64,000 bases of DNA from NCBI RefSeq assembly GCF_015482585.1, contig NZ_CP049742.1, positions 12,501-76,500 on the forward strand. The letters are read 5' to 3'. This stretch comes from Mangrovibacillus cuniculi (lineage in GTDB: Bacteria > Bacillota > Bacilli > Bacillales > R1DC41). Of this stretch, positions 2,566 to 57,413 are shown piece by piece. The stretch's first letter is position 1. Every line of letters starts with the position of its first letter. The notes under the pieces are model-generated. The model made no database searches and was not told where the DNA came from. It saw only the letters and a program-made list of their open reading frames with translations. Made by a program: the position numbers and the translations under genes.

Positions 2566-2670
2566 CTATATCAGAGGAAAAATTATATGCCGTTTAATTG
2601 AAAATTAAATAAATGATCAAGAATTAGTAATAGTTTCTCACGGACCATGAGAGAAGCAAACTCAGAGCAC

Positions 2671-3054
2671 AGGTGCCCCACAAGAGTGTCTCGCAGACCA
2701 CGAGAAGAGGAAAACCAATGCGCAGGTGTCCCACAAGAGTGTCTCGCAGACCACGAGAAGAGGAAAACCAATGCACAGGTGCCCCACAAGAGTGTCTCGC
2801 AGACCACGAGAAGAGGAAAACCAATGCACAGGTGTCCCACAAGAGCGTCTCGCAGACCACGAGAAGGGGAAAACCAATGCGCAGGTGTCCCACAAGAGCG
2901 TCTCGCAGACCACGAGAAGAGGAAAACTAATGCACAGGTGTCCCACAAGAACGTCTCGCAGACCACGAGAAGAGGGAAACCAATGCACAGGTGTCCCGCA
3001 AGAACGTCTCGCAGACCACCAAAAGAAGAAAACCAACGCACAGGTGCTCCGCAA
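2671..3054. repeat. Tandem array B, 7 x 53 bp plus a partial unit
   Basis: Seven full units of 53 bp start at 2671, 2724, 2777, 2830, 2883, 2936 and 2989, with a broken eighth at 3042. The unit sequence (AGGTGYCCCACAAGAG and so on) is unrelated to array A, but the period is identical. Each unit has a small dyad, TCTCG-N7-CGAGA. Since 53 is not a multiple of three, all frames are traversed in turn; the Arg- or Leu/Cys-rich open frames on both strands are artefacts. Confidence 0.95.
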
Positions 3055-4146: not shown

Positions 4147-4175
4147 TTGACGTTCCCCATCACTATTGGTAAGAT
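4147..4175 (+). promoter_or_regulatory. Sigma-A promoter of the purine operon
   Basis: TTGACG (4147-4152), a 17-bp spacer and TAAGAT (4170-4175). It sits between the PurR boxes and the riboswitch aptamer, which is the expected order. Initiation is expected near 4182. Confidence 0.85.
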
Positions 4176-4192
4176 AAAAGAGAATTAAATGA

Positions 4193-4261
4193 CCTCATAT
4201 AATCTTGGGAATATGGCCCATAAGTTTCTACCTGGCTACCGTAAATGGCTGGACTATGAGG
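4193..4261 (+). promoter_or_regulatory. Guanine-type purine riboswitch aptamer
   Basis: The aptamer is closed by CCTCAT/ATGAGG and contains the conserved TATAATCTTGGGAATATGG and AAGTTTCTACC blocks, then GGACTATG. The C in GGACTA is the ligand-pairing base that selects guanine or hypoxanthine; adenine aptamers have T there. It lies in the 5' leader of purE, upstream of a terminator. Ligand binding should favour termination, adding attenuation to the PurR control of initiation. Confidence 0.97.
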
Positions 4262-4329
4262 AAGTGAACGTTTCTGGCGAATGATAGTATGAGAACGATA
4301 GTGTAGGTTCACTATACGTTTCTTTTGTC

Positions 4330-17312: not shown

Positions 17313-17352
17313 GGTTTGGCTGATGGTCGTGAAAGTGCGGCTTTCTTTAGTT

Positions 17353-17690
17353 GACGACCGTCAGCCGTTGGAGACGGTCGTTAAAAGATAGAGCAGGTTG
17401 ATTTGACGACCGCCAGCGGGCTGAGACGGTTGTAAAAAGGTGTAGCATGTGGGTTTGACGACCGCCAGCGGGCTGAGACGGTTGTCAAAAGGTGTAGCAT
17501 GTAGATAAGACGACCGTCAGCGGGCTGAGACGGTTGTCAAAAAGTGTAGCATGTAGATTAGACGACCTTCAGCAAGCTGAGATGGTTGTAAAAAGGTGAA
17601 GCATGAAGATTAAACGACCGTCAGCGAGCTGAGATGGTTGTCAAAAGTTAAAATACAAACGCTAGACGACCATCAGCTTCCCACGAAGCT
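17353..17690. repeat. Tandem array C, 6 x 52 bp plus a partial unit
   Basis: Units of exactly 52 bp start at 17353, 17405, 17457, 17509, 17561 and 17613, with a partial at 17665. Each begins with a strong dyad, ACGACCGTCAGC followed after 2-6 nt by GCTGAGACGGTNGT, then an A-rich linker. Arm changes are partly compensated by G-T pairs. An inverted fragment (GCTGATGGTCGT) lies just before the array at about 17319. The unit is unrelated to the other arrays. No gene is apparent. Confidence 0.95.
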
Positions 17691-21047: not shown

Positions 21048-21362
21048 ATGCAAATCGATAAATTAAGAGGTCGCGAACTTGACCAACTATTCCAAGCGGT
21101 TCTTTCTTTAAATGATCTAGAAGAATGCTATCGATTTTTTGATGACCTGTGTACGGTAAACGAAATCCAATCACTAGCACAACGCTTAGAAGTTGCAAGA
21201 ATGCTACGTGAAGGAAAAACATACCACAAAATCGAAACAGAAACAGGAGCAAGTACGGCAACTATCTCACGAGTTAAGCGTTGCCTAAACTACGGAAACG
21301 ACGCATACGAAGAAATGCTTGCGCGTGTACACGAAGACAAAGCGGAAGCAGCAGAAAAATAA
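21048..21362 (+). CDS. yerC: TrpR-like regulator YerC/YecD family
   Basis: This 104-residue protein has the TrpR fold: RLEVARMLREGKTYHKIE and the helix-turn-helix ETGASTATISRVKRCLNYG (about residues 64-84). Family members are DNA-binding proteins; the target and ligand are not evident. It follows yerB by 15 nt with AAAAGGAGCG as ribosome-binding site. The gene is followed directly by a terminator and by copy 1 of the 60-nt structured element. Confidence 0.92.
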   Translation: MQIDKLRGRELDQLFQAVLSLNDLEECYRFFDDLCTVNEIQSLAQRLEVARMLREGKTYHKIETETGASTATISRVKRCLNYGNDAYEEMLARVHEDKAEAAEK

Positions 21363-21373
21363 GAAGTGATGGG

Positions 21374-21403
21374 ACAAAACGTTGAGGCGTTTTGTTCTTT
21401 TTT
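21374..21403 (+). terminator. Terminator after yerC
   Basis: ACAAAACG pairs with CGTTTTGT around a 6-nt loop, followed by TCTTTTTT. The T-tract runs directly into the structured element at 21404. Confidence 0.88.
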
Positions 21404-21463
21404 GTTACGTGACCAGTAACAACTCATCGTTAGCCACGTGATGTGGCTTGTACTTAGATGAGT
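21404..21463 (+). other. 60-nt structured element, copy 1
   Basis: Hairpin 1 is GTTAC-GTGACCA-GTAAC (21404-21420). It is followed by an outer stem, ACTCATC (21422-21428) with GATGAGT (21457-21463), that encloses an inner hairpin, GCCAC-GTGAT-GTGGC (21433-21447). Copies at 28747 and 42685 have the same layout with compensatory changes in both stems. It could be a structured RNA or a dispersed small repeat. I do not recognise a named family. Confidence 0.75.
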
Positions 21464-21508
21464 CTCCTTTGTTAGTTTAATGTTTAAAGGCAAGCGGGAG
21501 GAATCGGG

Positions 21509-22290
21509 GTACAAAAGCGCTTAAGCCGCCATGGGAAGAAGTAAAATCATGCGGCAAAAGCGCTTAGGTCGTCGAGAGAAGAAGGGAATCTTTGTGGCAA
21601 AAGCGCTTAAGCCGTCAAGAGAAGAAGGGAATCCAAGGGGAAAACCGCCGAAGCCGCCGAGAGAAGGAAGGAATTCAAGGTGCAAAAGCGCTTAAGCCGC
21701 TGAGAGAAGAAGGGAATCCAAGGGGCAAACCGCCGAAGACGCCAAGAGAAGAGGAAACGCAAGGCGACAAACGGCCGAAGTCGCCAGGAGAAGAGGAAAC
21801 GCAAGGCGACAAACGGCCTAAGCCGCCAAGAGAAGAGGAAACGCAAGGCGACAAACGGCCGAAGTCGCCAGGAGAAGAGGAAACGCAAGGCAACAAAAGT
21901 GCGAAGCCGCCAGGAGAAGAGGAAACGCAAGGCGACAAACGTGCGAAGCCTCCAAGAGAAGAGAAAACGTAAGGCGACAAACGGCCGAAGCCGCCATGAG
22001 AGGAGGAAACGCAAGGCGACAAACGGCCTAAGCCGCCAAGAGAAGAGGAAACGCAAGGCGACAAACGGCCGAAGTCGCCAGGAGAAGAGGAAACGCAAGG
22101 CGACAAACGGCCTAAGCCGCCAAGAGAAGAGGAAACGCAAGGCGACAAACGGCCGAAGCCGCCAAGAGAAGAGGAAACGCAAGGCGACAAGCGGCCGAAG
22201 TCGCCAGGAGAAGAGAAAACGTAAGGCGACAAACGGCCTAAGCCGTCAAGAAAAGAGAAAATCCCATGCGGCAAAAGCGCTTAAGCACCA
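21509..22290. repeat. Tandem array D, about 18 units of 42-43 bp
   Basis: Anchors at 21538, 21581, 21624 and 21667 are 43 bp apart. From 21667 through 21709, 21751 and on to 22255 the period is exactly 42 bp. The later units carry GGCGAC and GTCGCC arms about 11 nt apart; the earliest carry AAGCGCTT. As 42 is divisible by three, long open frames with a 14-residue period appear on both strands (for example 22182 to 21607, minus). They lack credible ribosome-binding sites and are treated as artefacts. From 22290 to 22390 I see nothing. Confidence 0.93.
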
Positions 22291-27519: not shown

Positions 27520-28692
27520 ATGAGGAAGCTTACGGCCAGTTTGATAGCTTGCTTGCTGGTGTTAGGGGGATGCGCACCGAGCTTTGATCGAGAGAATGAA
27601 GTAGTACAGGAAACAGATGATTCCCAAGAAAAAGCAGTAATACCTAGTGTGCAAATATCCGATCAATATTATCGAACAATTACACCATTTAGACCTAGTG
27701 CATCACGTGGTCTGATTGCAGCAAACTTAAACACGCAATATGATATTGAAGAGTTTGAACGAGGACTGATGAGAATTGCACAAGAGTCATTTTCTCCAGA
27801 GAGATTCTTGTTCCAAGAAGGTCAATATTTAGACAGAGATACAATTAGGTCATGGTTAGCTAGGAAGAAAACAGAGAAGCAATTAGCAGAAGAAAAGATG
27901 ACAGAAGACCAAAACCTGGGGCTTAATCCTGTTTTACAGGGAGATCCAACGAATGACGAAGTGCAGGAAGATAGCCCGTTGTATCTTGCTCATATTTTAG
28001 AACATAACTATCTAGTGCAAAAAGAGGATTCTTTGGAATTAGGTGGTTTAGTTATTGGACTTGCTTTAAACACTACTCATTACTACCAAAAAGAACAGTT
28101 TGGTGCTACGTATGAGGTGAACCTTGCAGATAGGGATAAGCAAGTAGAAGAGCAAGGAAAGAAGATGGCGCAACAAATTCTAAATCGTATTAGAGCTAGA
28201 GAAGACTTACAAGAAGTACCTGTGACCATCGCTTTGTTTAAGCAACGTCCAAAGCATTCTGTAACACCTGGTAACTTCGTTTCTTTCACAGAAGTGGAGA
28301 AGGGGAGTAACAATATAGGTTCCTGGAAAAAATGGAATGAGAAGTATATGTTGTTCCCATCAGATGCGGCACAAAGAGATCACCGTGATGATTACATGCG
28401 CTTCTTAAACTTTAAACAGGATATTGATGAATATTACCCTAACTATAATGGGGTAGTAGGTAGAGGATTATACCAAGGTGAGCAGTTAAATAGGTTGACC
28501 ATTGATATTCCAATCCAGTTTTACGGACAAGCAGAAACAATTGGATTTACACAATATGTGACAGGCTTAGTAACAGAGCACTTCCCAGAGTATTTACATG
28601 TTGAGGTAAACATCTCTTCTGTAAGTGGTGCGGAGTCGCTAGTTGTCAAAGAGGCAAATGCGCAAGAGCCTTATGTTCATATTTATCGATAA
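27520..28692 (+). CDS. yerH: CamS-family lipoprotein (YerH)
   Basis: The 390-residue protein has a lipoprotein signal, LLVLGGCAPSF, with the lipidated Cys at about residue 18. The rest is the CamS sex pheromone precursor domain found across Bacillales: RPSASRGLI, EGQYLDRDTIRSWL and GLVIGLALNT are typical. In enterococci and staphylococci the signal peptide of such proteins yields a peptide pheromone; a role here is unknown. It closes the pcrB operon, and a terminator and element copy 2 follow. Confidence 0.93.
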   Translation: MRKLTASLIACLLVLGGCAPSFDRENEVVQETDDSQEKAVIPSVQISDQYYRTITPFRPSASRGLIAANLNTQYDIEEFERGLMRIAQESFSPERFLFQEGQYLDRDTIRSWLARKKTEKQLAEEKMTEDQNLGLNPVLQGDPTNDEVQEDSPLYLAHILEHNYLVQKEDSLELGGLVIGLALNTTHYYQKEQFGATYEVNLADRDKQVEEQGKKMAQQILNRIRAREDLQEVPVTIALFKQRPKHSVTPGNFVSFTEVEKGSNNIGSWKKWNEKYMLFPSDAAQRDHRDDYMRFLNFKQDIDEYYPNYNGVVGRGLYQGEQLNRLTIDIPIQFYGQAETIGFTQYVTGLVTEHFPEYLHVEVNISSVSGAESLVVKEANAQEPYVHIYR

Positions 28693-28698
28693 AGTAAA

Positions 28699-28746
28699 AA
28701 CGTCGTCAGAAAAAGTTGGTGAGTAGCTTTTTTAGACGGCGTTTTT
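28699..28746 (+). terminator. Terminator after camS
   Basis: ACGTCGTC (28700-28707) pairs with GACGGCGT (28735-28742, one G-T pair), with a nested AAAAAG/CTTTTT hairpin inside, followed by TTTTT. The structured element begins at the next base after the T-tract. Confidence 0.85.
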
Positions 28747-28806
28747 GTTACGTGAACAGTAACAACTCCTCGTTAGCCACGTGATATGGCTTGCTCTTAG
28801 AGGAGT
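28747..28806 (+). other. 60-nt structured element, copy 2
   Basis: Same layout as at 21404: GTTAC-GTGAACA-GTAAC (28747-28763), outer stem ACTCCTC/GAGGAGT (28765-28771 with 28800-28806) and inner GCCA/TGGC around GTGATA. Compared with copy 1 the outer stem changes A-T to C-G at one pair, a compensatory double change. It is followed after 34 nt by tandem array E. Confidence 0.75.
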
Positions 28807-28840
28807 CTCTATATATTGAGTCCGAATATTGGGGTTTCAC

Positions 28841-29100
28841 GTGCGCTCAAGGGAAGGAAAAGCAAGTGTAGAGCACACGATACGAGAATAACGAGTGCTC
28901 AAGGGAAGGAAAAGCAAGAGTTGAGCACACGATATGAGAATAACGTGCGCTCAAGGGAAGTAAAAGCAAGTGTAGAGCGCACAATATGATAATAACGTGC
29001 GCTCAAGGGAAGGAAAAGCAAGTGTAGAGCACACGATACGAGAATAACGAGTGCTCATGAAAAGGAAAAGTAAGTGTAAAGCACATCATGACTACATCTC
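28841..29100. repeat. Tandem array E, 5 x 52 bp
   Basis: Units start at 28841, 28893, 28945, 28997 and 29049. The consensus begins GTGCGCTCAAGGGAAGGAAA, has GAGCACACGAT about 30 nt in and ends GAATAAC. GTGCGCTC and GAGCACAC can pair across about 16 nt. This unit is clearly homologous to that of array G at 56990, 28 kb away, and both keep a 52-bp period. The fifth unit is decayed. Confidence 0.94.
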
Positions 29101-35939: not shown

Positions 35940-36199
35940 ACTCATCTCGGACGTAGGGTTTGGTGCTGAGAAGAGAATAGAAGACCTCTATACTCATCTC
36001 GGCCGGAGAACTCGGTGCTCAGAAGAGAATAGAAGGCCTCTATACACATCTCGGCCGGAGAACTCGGTGCTCAGAAGAGAATAGAAGGTCTCTATACACA
36101 TCTCGGCCGGAGAACTGGGTGCTGAGAAGAGAATAGGAGTGCTCTATACACATCTCGGCCGGGGAACTGGGTGCCGAGAAGAGAATAAGGCATTCCTGT
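35940..36199. repeat. Tandem array F, 5 x 52 bp
   Basis: Units start at 35940, 35992, 36044, 36096 and 36148. The unit contains CATCTCGGCCGGAGAACT and GAAGAGAATAGAAG. TCTCGGC can pair with GCTGAGA (one G-T pair) across about 13 nt. The sequence is unrelated to the other arrays except in period. From 36200 to 36367 there is an AT-rich leader with an inverted repeat, AAGAAGT-N11-ACTTCTT (36294-36318), upstream of dgkB. Confidence 0.94.
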
Positions 36200-41225: not shown

Positions 41226-42602
41226 ATGAGTAAATTTACAGCACCAGTCAAAAAGAATGATGTCGTGGAAGTAACCGCGGAGGATTTAACGCATGAAGGG
41301 TTAGGAGTCGCGAAAGTAGATGGGTATCCTATATTCACACCCAATACCTTACCAGGTGAAAAAGCTGAAATCCGCGTTGTGAAGACGCAAAAAGGGTATG
41401 CGTTTGGTCGTTTACAGACATTGATTTCAGAAAGCCCAGATCGAGTAGAGCCACCTTGTCCTATTTATAGTCGTTGTGGAGGTTGTCAAACACAACATCT
41501 TTCCTATGATGGGCAGCTACGAGCGAAGCAAAAACAGGTAAAAGACTTAATGAAGAAAGTTGCGAAACTACCAGACGTTCCTGTTCATCCAACAATCGGA
41601 ATGGACGAGCATCCTTGGAACTATCGTAATAAAGCGCAGATGCCAGTAGGAGAGCAGGATGGAAAGTTAGTGGCTGGATTTTATGCGAAGCGTACGCACG
41701 AGATTATTGATATGGATCATTGTTTAATTCAGCAGGAGAAGAACGATGAAGTATTGCAAATTGTGAAAGCAGAAGCGGAACGATTAGGGGTCCGTCCTTA
41801 TGACGAGAAAACACATAAGGGAACGCTTCGCCACGTGATGACACGGGTTGGAAGAACTTCTGGAGAAATTATGGTGGTGCTGATTACTCGAACACCATCT
41901 TTCCCGCAGAAAGAAGCATTGGTAAGTGCTTTAACCGAAAAGATCTCTGGACTTACTTCAGTTGTCCACAATATTAATAATAAGCGAACAAATGTGATTT
42001 TTGGTGAGGAAACGAATACTTTATGGGGAGCGGATGTTATTTATGATAACATTGGCGACATTCGCTTTGCTATTTCAGCACGTTCGTTCTACCAGATTAA
42101 TTCGGTTCAAACAAAGGTGTTATATGATAAAGCGTTAGAGTATGCACAGTTGACTGGTGAAGAAAATGTCATCGATGCATATTGTGGCATTGGGACGATT
42201 TCGTTATTCTTGGCACAGCAAGCAAAGCATGTATACGGAGTGGAGATTGTTCCAGAAGCTATTGAAGATGCGAAGGTAAATGCAAAGTTAAACAACATCT
42301 CCAATGCTACTTTTGAGGCGGGACCTGCTGAAGTTGTTATTCCTAATTGGTATAAAAACGGAATTACGGCTGATGTGTTAGTAGTAGACCCACCAAGAAA
42401 AGGCTGCGATCAAGCTTTATTAGATACCATTATGGCTATGAAACCAAAGCGTGTGGTGTATGTGTCGTGTAATCCAGCAACGTTAGCTAGAGATTTACGC
42501 GTGTTAGAAGATGGTGGATATAAGACTGTGAAAGTGCAGCCTGTAGATATGTTCCCGCAGACAAGTCATGTCGAGGCAGTCGCCATGCTGACCTTAAAAT
42601 AG
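41226..42602 (+). CDS. rlmCD: 23S rRNA (uracil-5-)-methyltransferase RlmCD
   Basis: The 458-residue protein methylates U747 and U1939 of 23S rRNA in B. subtilis (YefA). It has an N-terminal TRAM domain (residues ~5-60), a [4Fe-4S]-type cysteine cluster ([15 protein letters not shown]), SAM-binding [14 protein letters not shown] and the catalytic region [14 protein letters not shown] 41226 follows GTGAAGGAAATG. The terminator after it is followed by element copy 3. Confidence 0.94.
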
Positions 42603-42646: not shown

Positions 42647-42684
42647 TGTCACTTCGGTATTATAATACCGGAGTGACATTTTTT
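42647..42684 (+). terminator. Terminator after rlmCD
   Basis: TGTCACTTCGGTATT pairs with AATACCGGAGTGACA, nearly perfect over 14-15 bp, followed by TTTTTT. The element follows the last T directly. Confidence 0.93.
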
Positions 42685-42744
42685 GTTACGTGAACAGCAA
42701 CAACTCATCATTGACCACGTGATGTGGTCCTTACTCAGATAAGT
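42685..42744 (+). other. 60-nt structured element, copy 3
   Basis: Same layout: GTTAC-GTGAACA-GCAAC (42685-42701, one mismatch), outer ACTCATC/GATAAGT (42703-42709 with 42738-42744, one mismatch) and inner GACCAC-GTGAT-GTGGTC (42713-42729). The inner stem replaces the G-C pair of copies 1 and 2 with A-T, a compensatory change, and extends by one pair. The sequence after it, to 42860, holds no gene that I can see. Confidence 0.72.
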
Positions 42745-42862
42745 TTCCTTTATATACTTGGTTGATTATTCGATGTGAAGTTTCAGATGGTCATATTTTC
42801 GATTTTGGATATCCATTATCCTCCGAATTCGTAAGCCACTATTAAAAAAGCTTCATGAGTCA

Positions 42863-53096: not shown

Positions 53097-53293
53097 GAAA
53101 AAACACTGCACCTTGTTAGAAAGATGCAGTGTCGGAGCACGATATGTAGATAACCTACTAGACAATAGCCTAGTAAACTAGTAAAAGCGATTCGTGTCGT
53201 CGCTGCACTTCCCCACGCTAGTATTATCTAGATCGGGTCTTAAGGGTCTAGGCACGAACCTATCTCAGCCCCGTAATGGAGCTCCCCTAGTGC
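53097..53293 (-). promoter_or_regulatory. TPP riboswitch (THI box) with terminator
   Basis: On the minus strand the aptamer runs from 53293 to 53204, closed by GCACT/AGTGC. It contains the THI-box cores GGGCTGAGAT and ACCCTTAAGACCCGATCTAG, ending CGTGGGGAAGTGC. The expression platform ends with a terminator, ACACTGCACC paired with GGTGCAGTGT-type arms and a T-tract (53133-53097). It lies 30 nt before ykoF, so TPP should turn the transporter operon off. Confidence 0.97.
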
Positions 53294-53326
53294 ACAAGTA
53301 TGCAGTTGTTAATCGTTTTCTAAGTC

Positions 53327-56935: not shown

Positions 56936-56989
56936 TATGGGTGCCTAGCCGAGAAATAAGGAAGTTAGAATACACGATCATGGAATAAC

Positions 56990-57301
56990 GTGCGCTCAAG
57001 CGAGTGGAAAAGCGCTCTAGAGCACACGATAAAGGAATAACGTGCGTTCAAGCGAGTGGAAAAGCGCTCTAGAGCACACGATAAAGGAATAACGTGCGTT
57101 CAAGCGAGTGGAAAAGCGCTCTAGAGCACACGATAAAGGAATAACGTGCGTTCAAGCGAGTGGAAAAGCGCTCTAGAGCACACGATAAAGGAATAACGTG
57201 CGCTCAAGCGAGTGGAAAAGCGCTCTAGAGCACACGATAAAGGAATAACGTGCGTTCAAGCGAGTGAAAAAGCACTCTAGAGCACACGATAATGAAAAAA
57301 C
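56990..57301. repeat. Tandem array G, 6 x 52 bp
   Basis: Units start at 56990, 57042, 57094, 57146, 57198 and 57250; a partial unit precedes them from about 56952. The unit, GTGCGYTCAAGCGAGTGGAA to GGAATAAC, is nearly invariant across copies 2-5, indicating recent amplification. GTGCGCTC and GAGCACAC pair across about 16 nt, with AGCGCTCT inside. It is homologous to array E. Confidence 0.95.
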
Positions 57302-57413
57302 CTGCGCTCTAGACAGCAGAAAATAACTTCAGACCATACATTAAGAAAAAATGAAACTCCTTCCAGACTATTTTCGTCTTACTATATACAAATATATAAA
57401 TAGGAGACTCACA

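Follow-up and report, generated by a model that had tools for sequence, protein, structure and literature searches.

The window, by which we mean the whole stretch of 64,000 nucleotides of Mangrovibacillus cuniculi analyzed here, contains three copies of a short structured element on the forward strand. Each copy begins directly where the T-run of an intrinsic terminator ends, a feature that was overlooked in the original prediction. The genes, terminators and elements at the three sites are listed below, where R1 is a covariance model that we derived from 34 copies, taken from this genome and from others.

21048 to 21362, forward strand: gene upstream of copy 1, Trp repressor family (YerC-like; Pfam PF01371, E 3.8e-36)
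21372 to 21403, forward strand: terminator (hairpin and T6) of the TrpR/YerC-family gene, flush with copy 1 (hairpin scan)
21404 to 21473, forward strand: copy 1 (RF01690, 35.2 bits; R1, 74.2 bits), made of hairpin 1 (21404 to 21420), the outer stem with the inner hairpin (21422 to 21463) and a TCCTT tail
27520 to 28692, forward strand: gene upstream of copy 2, CamS family (Pfam PF07537, E 2.1e-121)
28701 to 28746, forward strand: terminator-like hairpin and T5 after the CamS-family gene, flush with copy 2 (hairpin scan)
28747 to 28816, forward strand: copy 2 (R1, 59.5 bits; on its own below the Rfam threshold)
41226 to 42602, forward strand: gene upstream of copy 3, TRAM domain and uracil-5 methyltransferase (Pfam PF05958, PF01938)
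42648 to 42684, forward strand: terminator (hairpin and T-run) after the uracil-5 methyltransferase gene, flush with copy 3 (hairpin scan)
42685 to 42754, forward strand: copy 3 (R1, 49.3 bits; pairs broken on the forward strand)

The original prediction had placed three copies at 21404, 28747 and 42685, and they are present at exactly these coordinates. The order of their parts had also been described correctly: a 5-bp hairpin is followed by a 7-bp outer stem that encloses a second hairpin, whose loop GTGAT is invariant. The proposed length of 60 nt is too short by some bases, as the element spans about 66-70 nt when the TCCTT tail is included. The double changes put forward as signs of a selected structure exist as quoted, with one pair of the outer stem turning from A-T in copy 1 to C-G in copy 2, and with exchanged pairs in the inner stem between copies 1 and 3. 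The stems are nevertheless less regular than claimed: copy 3 has GTTAC/GCAAC and ACTCATC/GATAAGT, which break pairs of the forward strand, and the inner stem of copy 2 has one C-A mismatch that was missing from the earlier description. Copies 1 and 2 fold better than shuffled sequences on both strands. Copy 3 folds like its shuffles on the forward strand (z 0.10) and moderately better than them on the minus strand (z -2.3). The difference comes from those changes of copy 3 that disrupt forward-strand pairs but leave wobbles on the other strand. Conservation extends to unpaired positions of the element, namely GTGA, GTT, TTA, and TCC.

The element is a member of a known family, Bacillaceae-1 RNA (RF01690), an RNA of unknown function in Rfam, and the claim that it was undescribed and matched no recognized RNA family was wrong. 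Copy 1 matches RF01690 on the minus strand with 35.2 bits, for a gathering cut-off of 35, and copies 2 and 3 are tied to the family by model R1. A search of the genome with the Rfam model gave 43 matches at E values up to 1, of which 24 were above the cut-off (copy 1 and 23 others). The family has the same architecture as the element but is read on the opposite strand, and its usual loop is AGGA whereas the loops of this genome are GTGA. Bacillaceae-1 RNA was listed by Weinberg et al. 2010 as a structured, not cis-regulatory RNA from Bacillaceae (PMC2864571), and eight newly added structures of a B. subtilis atlas are annotated with it (PMC8208703). Our search of the literature, mainly outside subscription journals, found no paper assigning a function to RF01690. 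The loop ACAGGAUGU, common in other genomes, resembles the CsrA consensus. A role as CsrA sponge was rejected as a general explanation, since the loops ACGTGA (here) and ACACGA (in others) lack GGA.

While Rfam files RF01690 as a small RNA (type Gene; sRNA), it behaves here as an interspersed repeat. Model R1 identified 144 copies (E up to 0.01) in the 3.15-Mb genome, so the repetition noticed in the window is far beyond chance. The distribution across 60 other genomes of the order is patchy, from 0 to at least 83 copies each: no copy reached the threshold in about half of the 61 genomes, others have 40 to 80, and two species within one genus have 57 and 4 copies, respectively. Copies cluster by genome, unlike an sRNA gene, and for 86 of 91 copies the nearest relative came from the same genome, against 7.4 expected. 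Carriage by phages or plasmids was rejected, since the queries used had no match in plasmid, phage, and viral collections (copy 1 searched in plasmids and phages, two family patterns in IMG/VR).

We read 136 copies of this genome with their context. At least three T immediately precede the element in 113 of them, meaning that it lies flush at the end of a T-run, and at least 96 of these have a terminator hairpin ahead of the T-run (score above the 95th percentile of 300 control T-runs). The remaining copies comprise 10 within a larger repeat and 13 others, several of which are in tandem. Terminator-linked copies always have the same orientation, with hairpin 1 next to the T-run. In the 89 clear cases, the element starts 4-10 nt from the basal G-C pair of the terminator hairpin, and in 58 of them 6 or 7 nt from it, which is about where intrinsic termination releases the transcript. 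For comparison, the T-runs of 37 terminator-like structures without the element end 4-9 nt from the stem, without the peak at 6-7. The upstream ORF is co-directional in 84 of the 98 testable cases, and the median distance from its end to the element is 65 nt. This flush placement of family copies at terminators, in one orientation, is new. Nothing similar was observed among the RF01690 copies that we read in other genomes, which are mostly high-scoring ones and not a complete sample. A preference for a replication strand was rejected: using a split between origin and terminus that was fitted to the same data, 101 of the 113 terminator-linked copies and 232 of the 283 nearby ORFs are on the leading strand, with no clear excess over the gene bias.

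The interpretation that we develop below competes mainly with a functional link to termination. The element could be a cis-acting site working with the terminator, either as a palindromic binding site for a protein or as a back-up structure past the T-run, which would stop or handle polymerases that read through. The uniform orientation at 6-7 nt beyond the stem, the co-directional upstream ORFs and the conserved unpaired positions would all fit such a site. We still regard it as unlikely, because the same joint recurs at the ends of larger repeats, which are no gene terminators, none of the copies read from other genomes showed the arrangement, and the stems are decayed, with many mismatches. 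Furthermore, most terminators lack the element: roughly 12-15 intergenic terminators can be called in the window and three carry it, the corresponding genome-wide counts being estimates from sampled stretches.

We measured covariation within the genome on 85 distinct terminator-linked copies and 18 pairs. Standard pairs make up 93.3% of the pair cells, against 85.8% in shuffled data, and two-sided changes are found in 10 of the 18 pairs. The covariation score is 0.259 (0.127 when shuffled), a value that was reached by none of 500 shuffles nor by any slid control. Across genomes, the score for the two main stems is 0.789 against 0.194 when shuffled, and all these figures count related sequences, not independent events. 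Covariation is strong, and selection on the structure is supported by the two-sided pair changes and by the excess over shuffles. However, covariation by itself is no proof that such a family works as RNA. Copies kept as the RNA of one strand should tolerate G-U on that strand more than A-C. On the strand of the original prediction, the stem cells of this genome have 43 G-T and 39 A-C (P = 0.74), along with 66 other mismatches. This fits copies that change without a strand-specific constraint, even if such balanced counts say nothing about the selective force behind the structure in the source lineages. In copies from other genomes, 33 G-T cells stand against 8 A-C in the two main stems on the same strand, and a single terminal pair contributes 15 of these 33.

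The copies of other genomes are often modules of larger repeats or lie within rRNA or tRNA operons. The operon copies adjoin 16S, 5S, or tRNA genes (L035, L048, L044, L046, L045, L051, L132, L135), and the Rfam strand has the sense of the operon in all eight cases checked, so a role as RNA is possible in these operons. The family might accordingly be a functional RNA as filed in Rfam, either a small RNA or an RNA-processing element, with the terminator-linked copies as a side expansion. The strong covariation and the common sense of the operon copies argue for this reading, as does the excess of G-T over A-C elsewhere. Yet that excess favors the strand opposite to the one of Rfam, and the asymmetry is absent in this genome. 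The terminator-linked copies also lie beyond the end of the transcript, and the number of copies is patchy and reaches 144. We consider a functional RNA quite unlikely on these sequence patterns. Between the two options given in the original prediction, an RNA or a cruciform-like DNA site, the DNA site fits this genome better and the RNA fits it worse.

Several observations bear on mobility, and we infer from comparisons of sequences that copies originate by insertion. A larger repeat has the right end CGCGCGCCTnnnGCTTTT, which occurs 27 times in the sequence examined; about 11 are joined to the element at an identical joint and the rest to other sequence. In relatives of the genus Cytobacillus, the purH-purD and yerC-pcrB regions are filled in some genomes and empty in others. 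Among the eight loci of the Cytobacillus group, a composite repeat with the element lies between purH and purD in three, and the element lies between yerC and pcrB in two. Copies occupy different intergenic gaps in different genomes across 80 yerC neighborhoods, and one genome has a copy within a 5S-like gene that follows an intact 5S gene (genome G004, locus L132, 390-570). Both paralogous and orthologous empty sites exist; a clear target-site duplication was not seen. The pattern of the variant of this genome had no match in a collection of genome contigs, which offered no close relative in which to look for empty sites orthologous to the terminator-linked copies. A larger repeat that starts with TGTCTAGCTCC and ends with GCGCTTTTC recurs in intergenic regions of several Bacillaceae, often with the element as a module (L019, L012, L016; L142 and L143 in Cytobacillus).

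We think that the element is probably a non-autonomous, palindromic, interspersed DNA repeat of the REP/MITE type, which in this genome favors sites made of a hairpin and a T-run. It would spread within individual genomes, and one lineage in this genome would land at such sites with hairpin 1 against the T-run, so that most copies start where an intrinsic terminator ends. The enzyme involved would recognize hairpins as single-stranded or cruciform DNA, and the placement would reflect recognition or tolerance of the target, not a job in termination. Against this reading, the conserved unpaired positions and the compensatory changes could mean that the element has a function at each site, and the copies of rRNA and tRNA operons elsewhere share one sense (8/8 checked).

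Like REP elements and MITEs (BOX, RUP, SPRITE, bcr1), the element is short, structured, intergenic, present in high copy number, genome-specific, and non-coding. In contrast with these systems, it has no partner transposase that we could find, lacks a GTAG tag and lies flush at terminators. SPRITE itself resembles a terminator (PMC3049150), whereas the element follows one. The stem-loop families Bhal-1 (74 bp, B. halodurans) and Bant-1 (PMC2267715) are similar in size and in their intergenic class, a likeness that we draw by description only. The surroundings of the copies showed no MITE partner with a transposase and shared terminal inverted repeats, while palindromic hairpins are present. 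Mobilization by a RAYT is not supported, nor is a REP of the GTAG type, because there is no GTAG at the ends of the element, the single Y1 transposase gene of the genome is flanked by a different repeat, and the presence of Y1 does not track copy number across genomes. Sites of the attC/integron type were also rejected, as their core motifs were unmatched by eye.

The insertion sites of bacterial-C group II introns lie directly behind intrinsic terminators, with one orientation (PMC8919778), and these introns thus have the same target placement as the element (113/136 flush to the T-run, at least 96 with a terminator hairpin). This shared target is what speaks for a link to a group IIC intron, or to another element with a reverse transcriptase, of which the repeat would be a remnant or a passenger; we regard this as very improbable. 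Unlike these introns, the element has 66-70 nt and no ribozyme, and it ends in short palindromic hairpins. No group II intron was matched by Rfam in the window, and no reverse transcriptase (PF00078) was matched in the 98%-complete genome. On the latter result a group II intron or a retron was rejected, and a resident group IIC intron is thus not the explanation. For the DNA repeat that we favor, one tentative possibility is that a putative enzyme, independent of reverse transcription, moves the element by recognizing a DNA hairpin and a T-run, with terminators serving as landing sites across the genome. Such a system would be a DNA-level counterpart of the targeting of group IIC introns.

If the repeat interpretation is true, a curated RNA family that is used for the annotation of small RNAs would be largely a mobile repeat and would need re-examination. 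The genome would also offer around 100 natural terminator sites to test the landing rule (hairpin, T-run, 6-7 nt), and prompts one to ask which agent, in the absence of a reverse transcriptase, would read terminators as DNA.

The window has other repeats and structured elements. An array with a period of 42 bp follows copy 1 directly, at 21512-22261. It has AAAAGCGCTTAAGCCGC in common with an array next to the sole Y1 (RAYT-like) gene of the genome (L031, G000 C1:2434935-2438222) and, given this shared sequence, may represent the REP family of that gene. Six intergenic tandem arrays (1923-2548, 2667-3046, 17351-17677, 28839-29085, 35962-36187, and 56972-57306) have apparently unrelated units of nearly equal period, 52-53 bp. 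Ordinary riboswitches are found at 4175-4276 (purine, forward strand) and at 53193-53298 (TPP, reverse strand).
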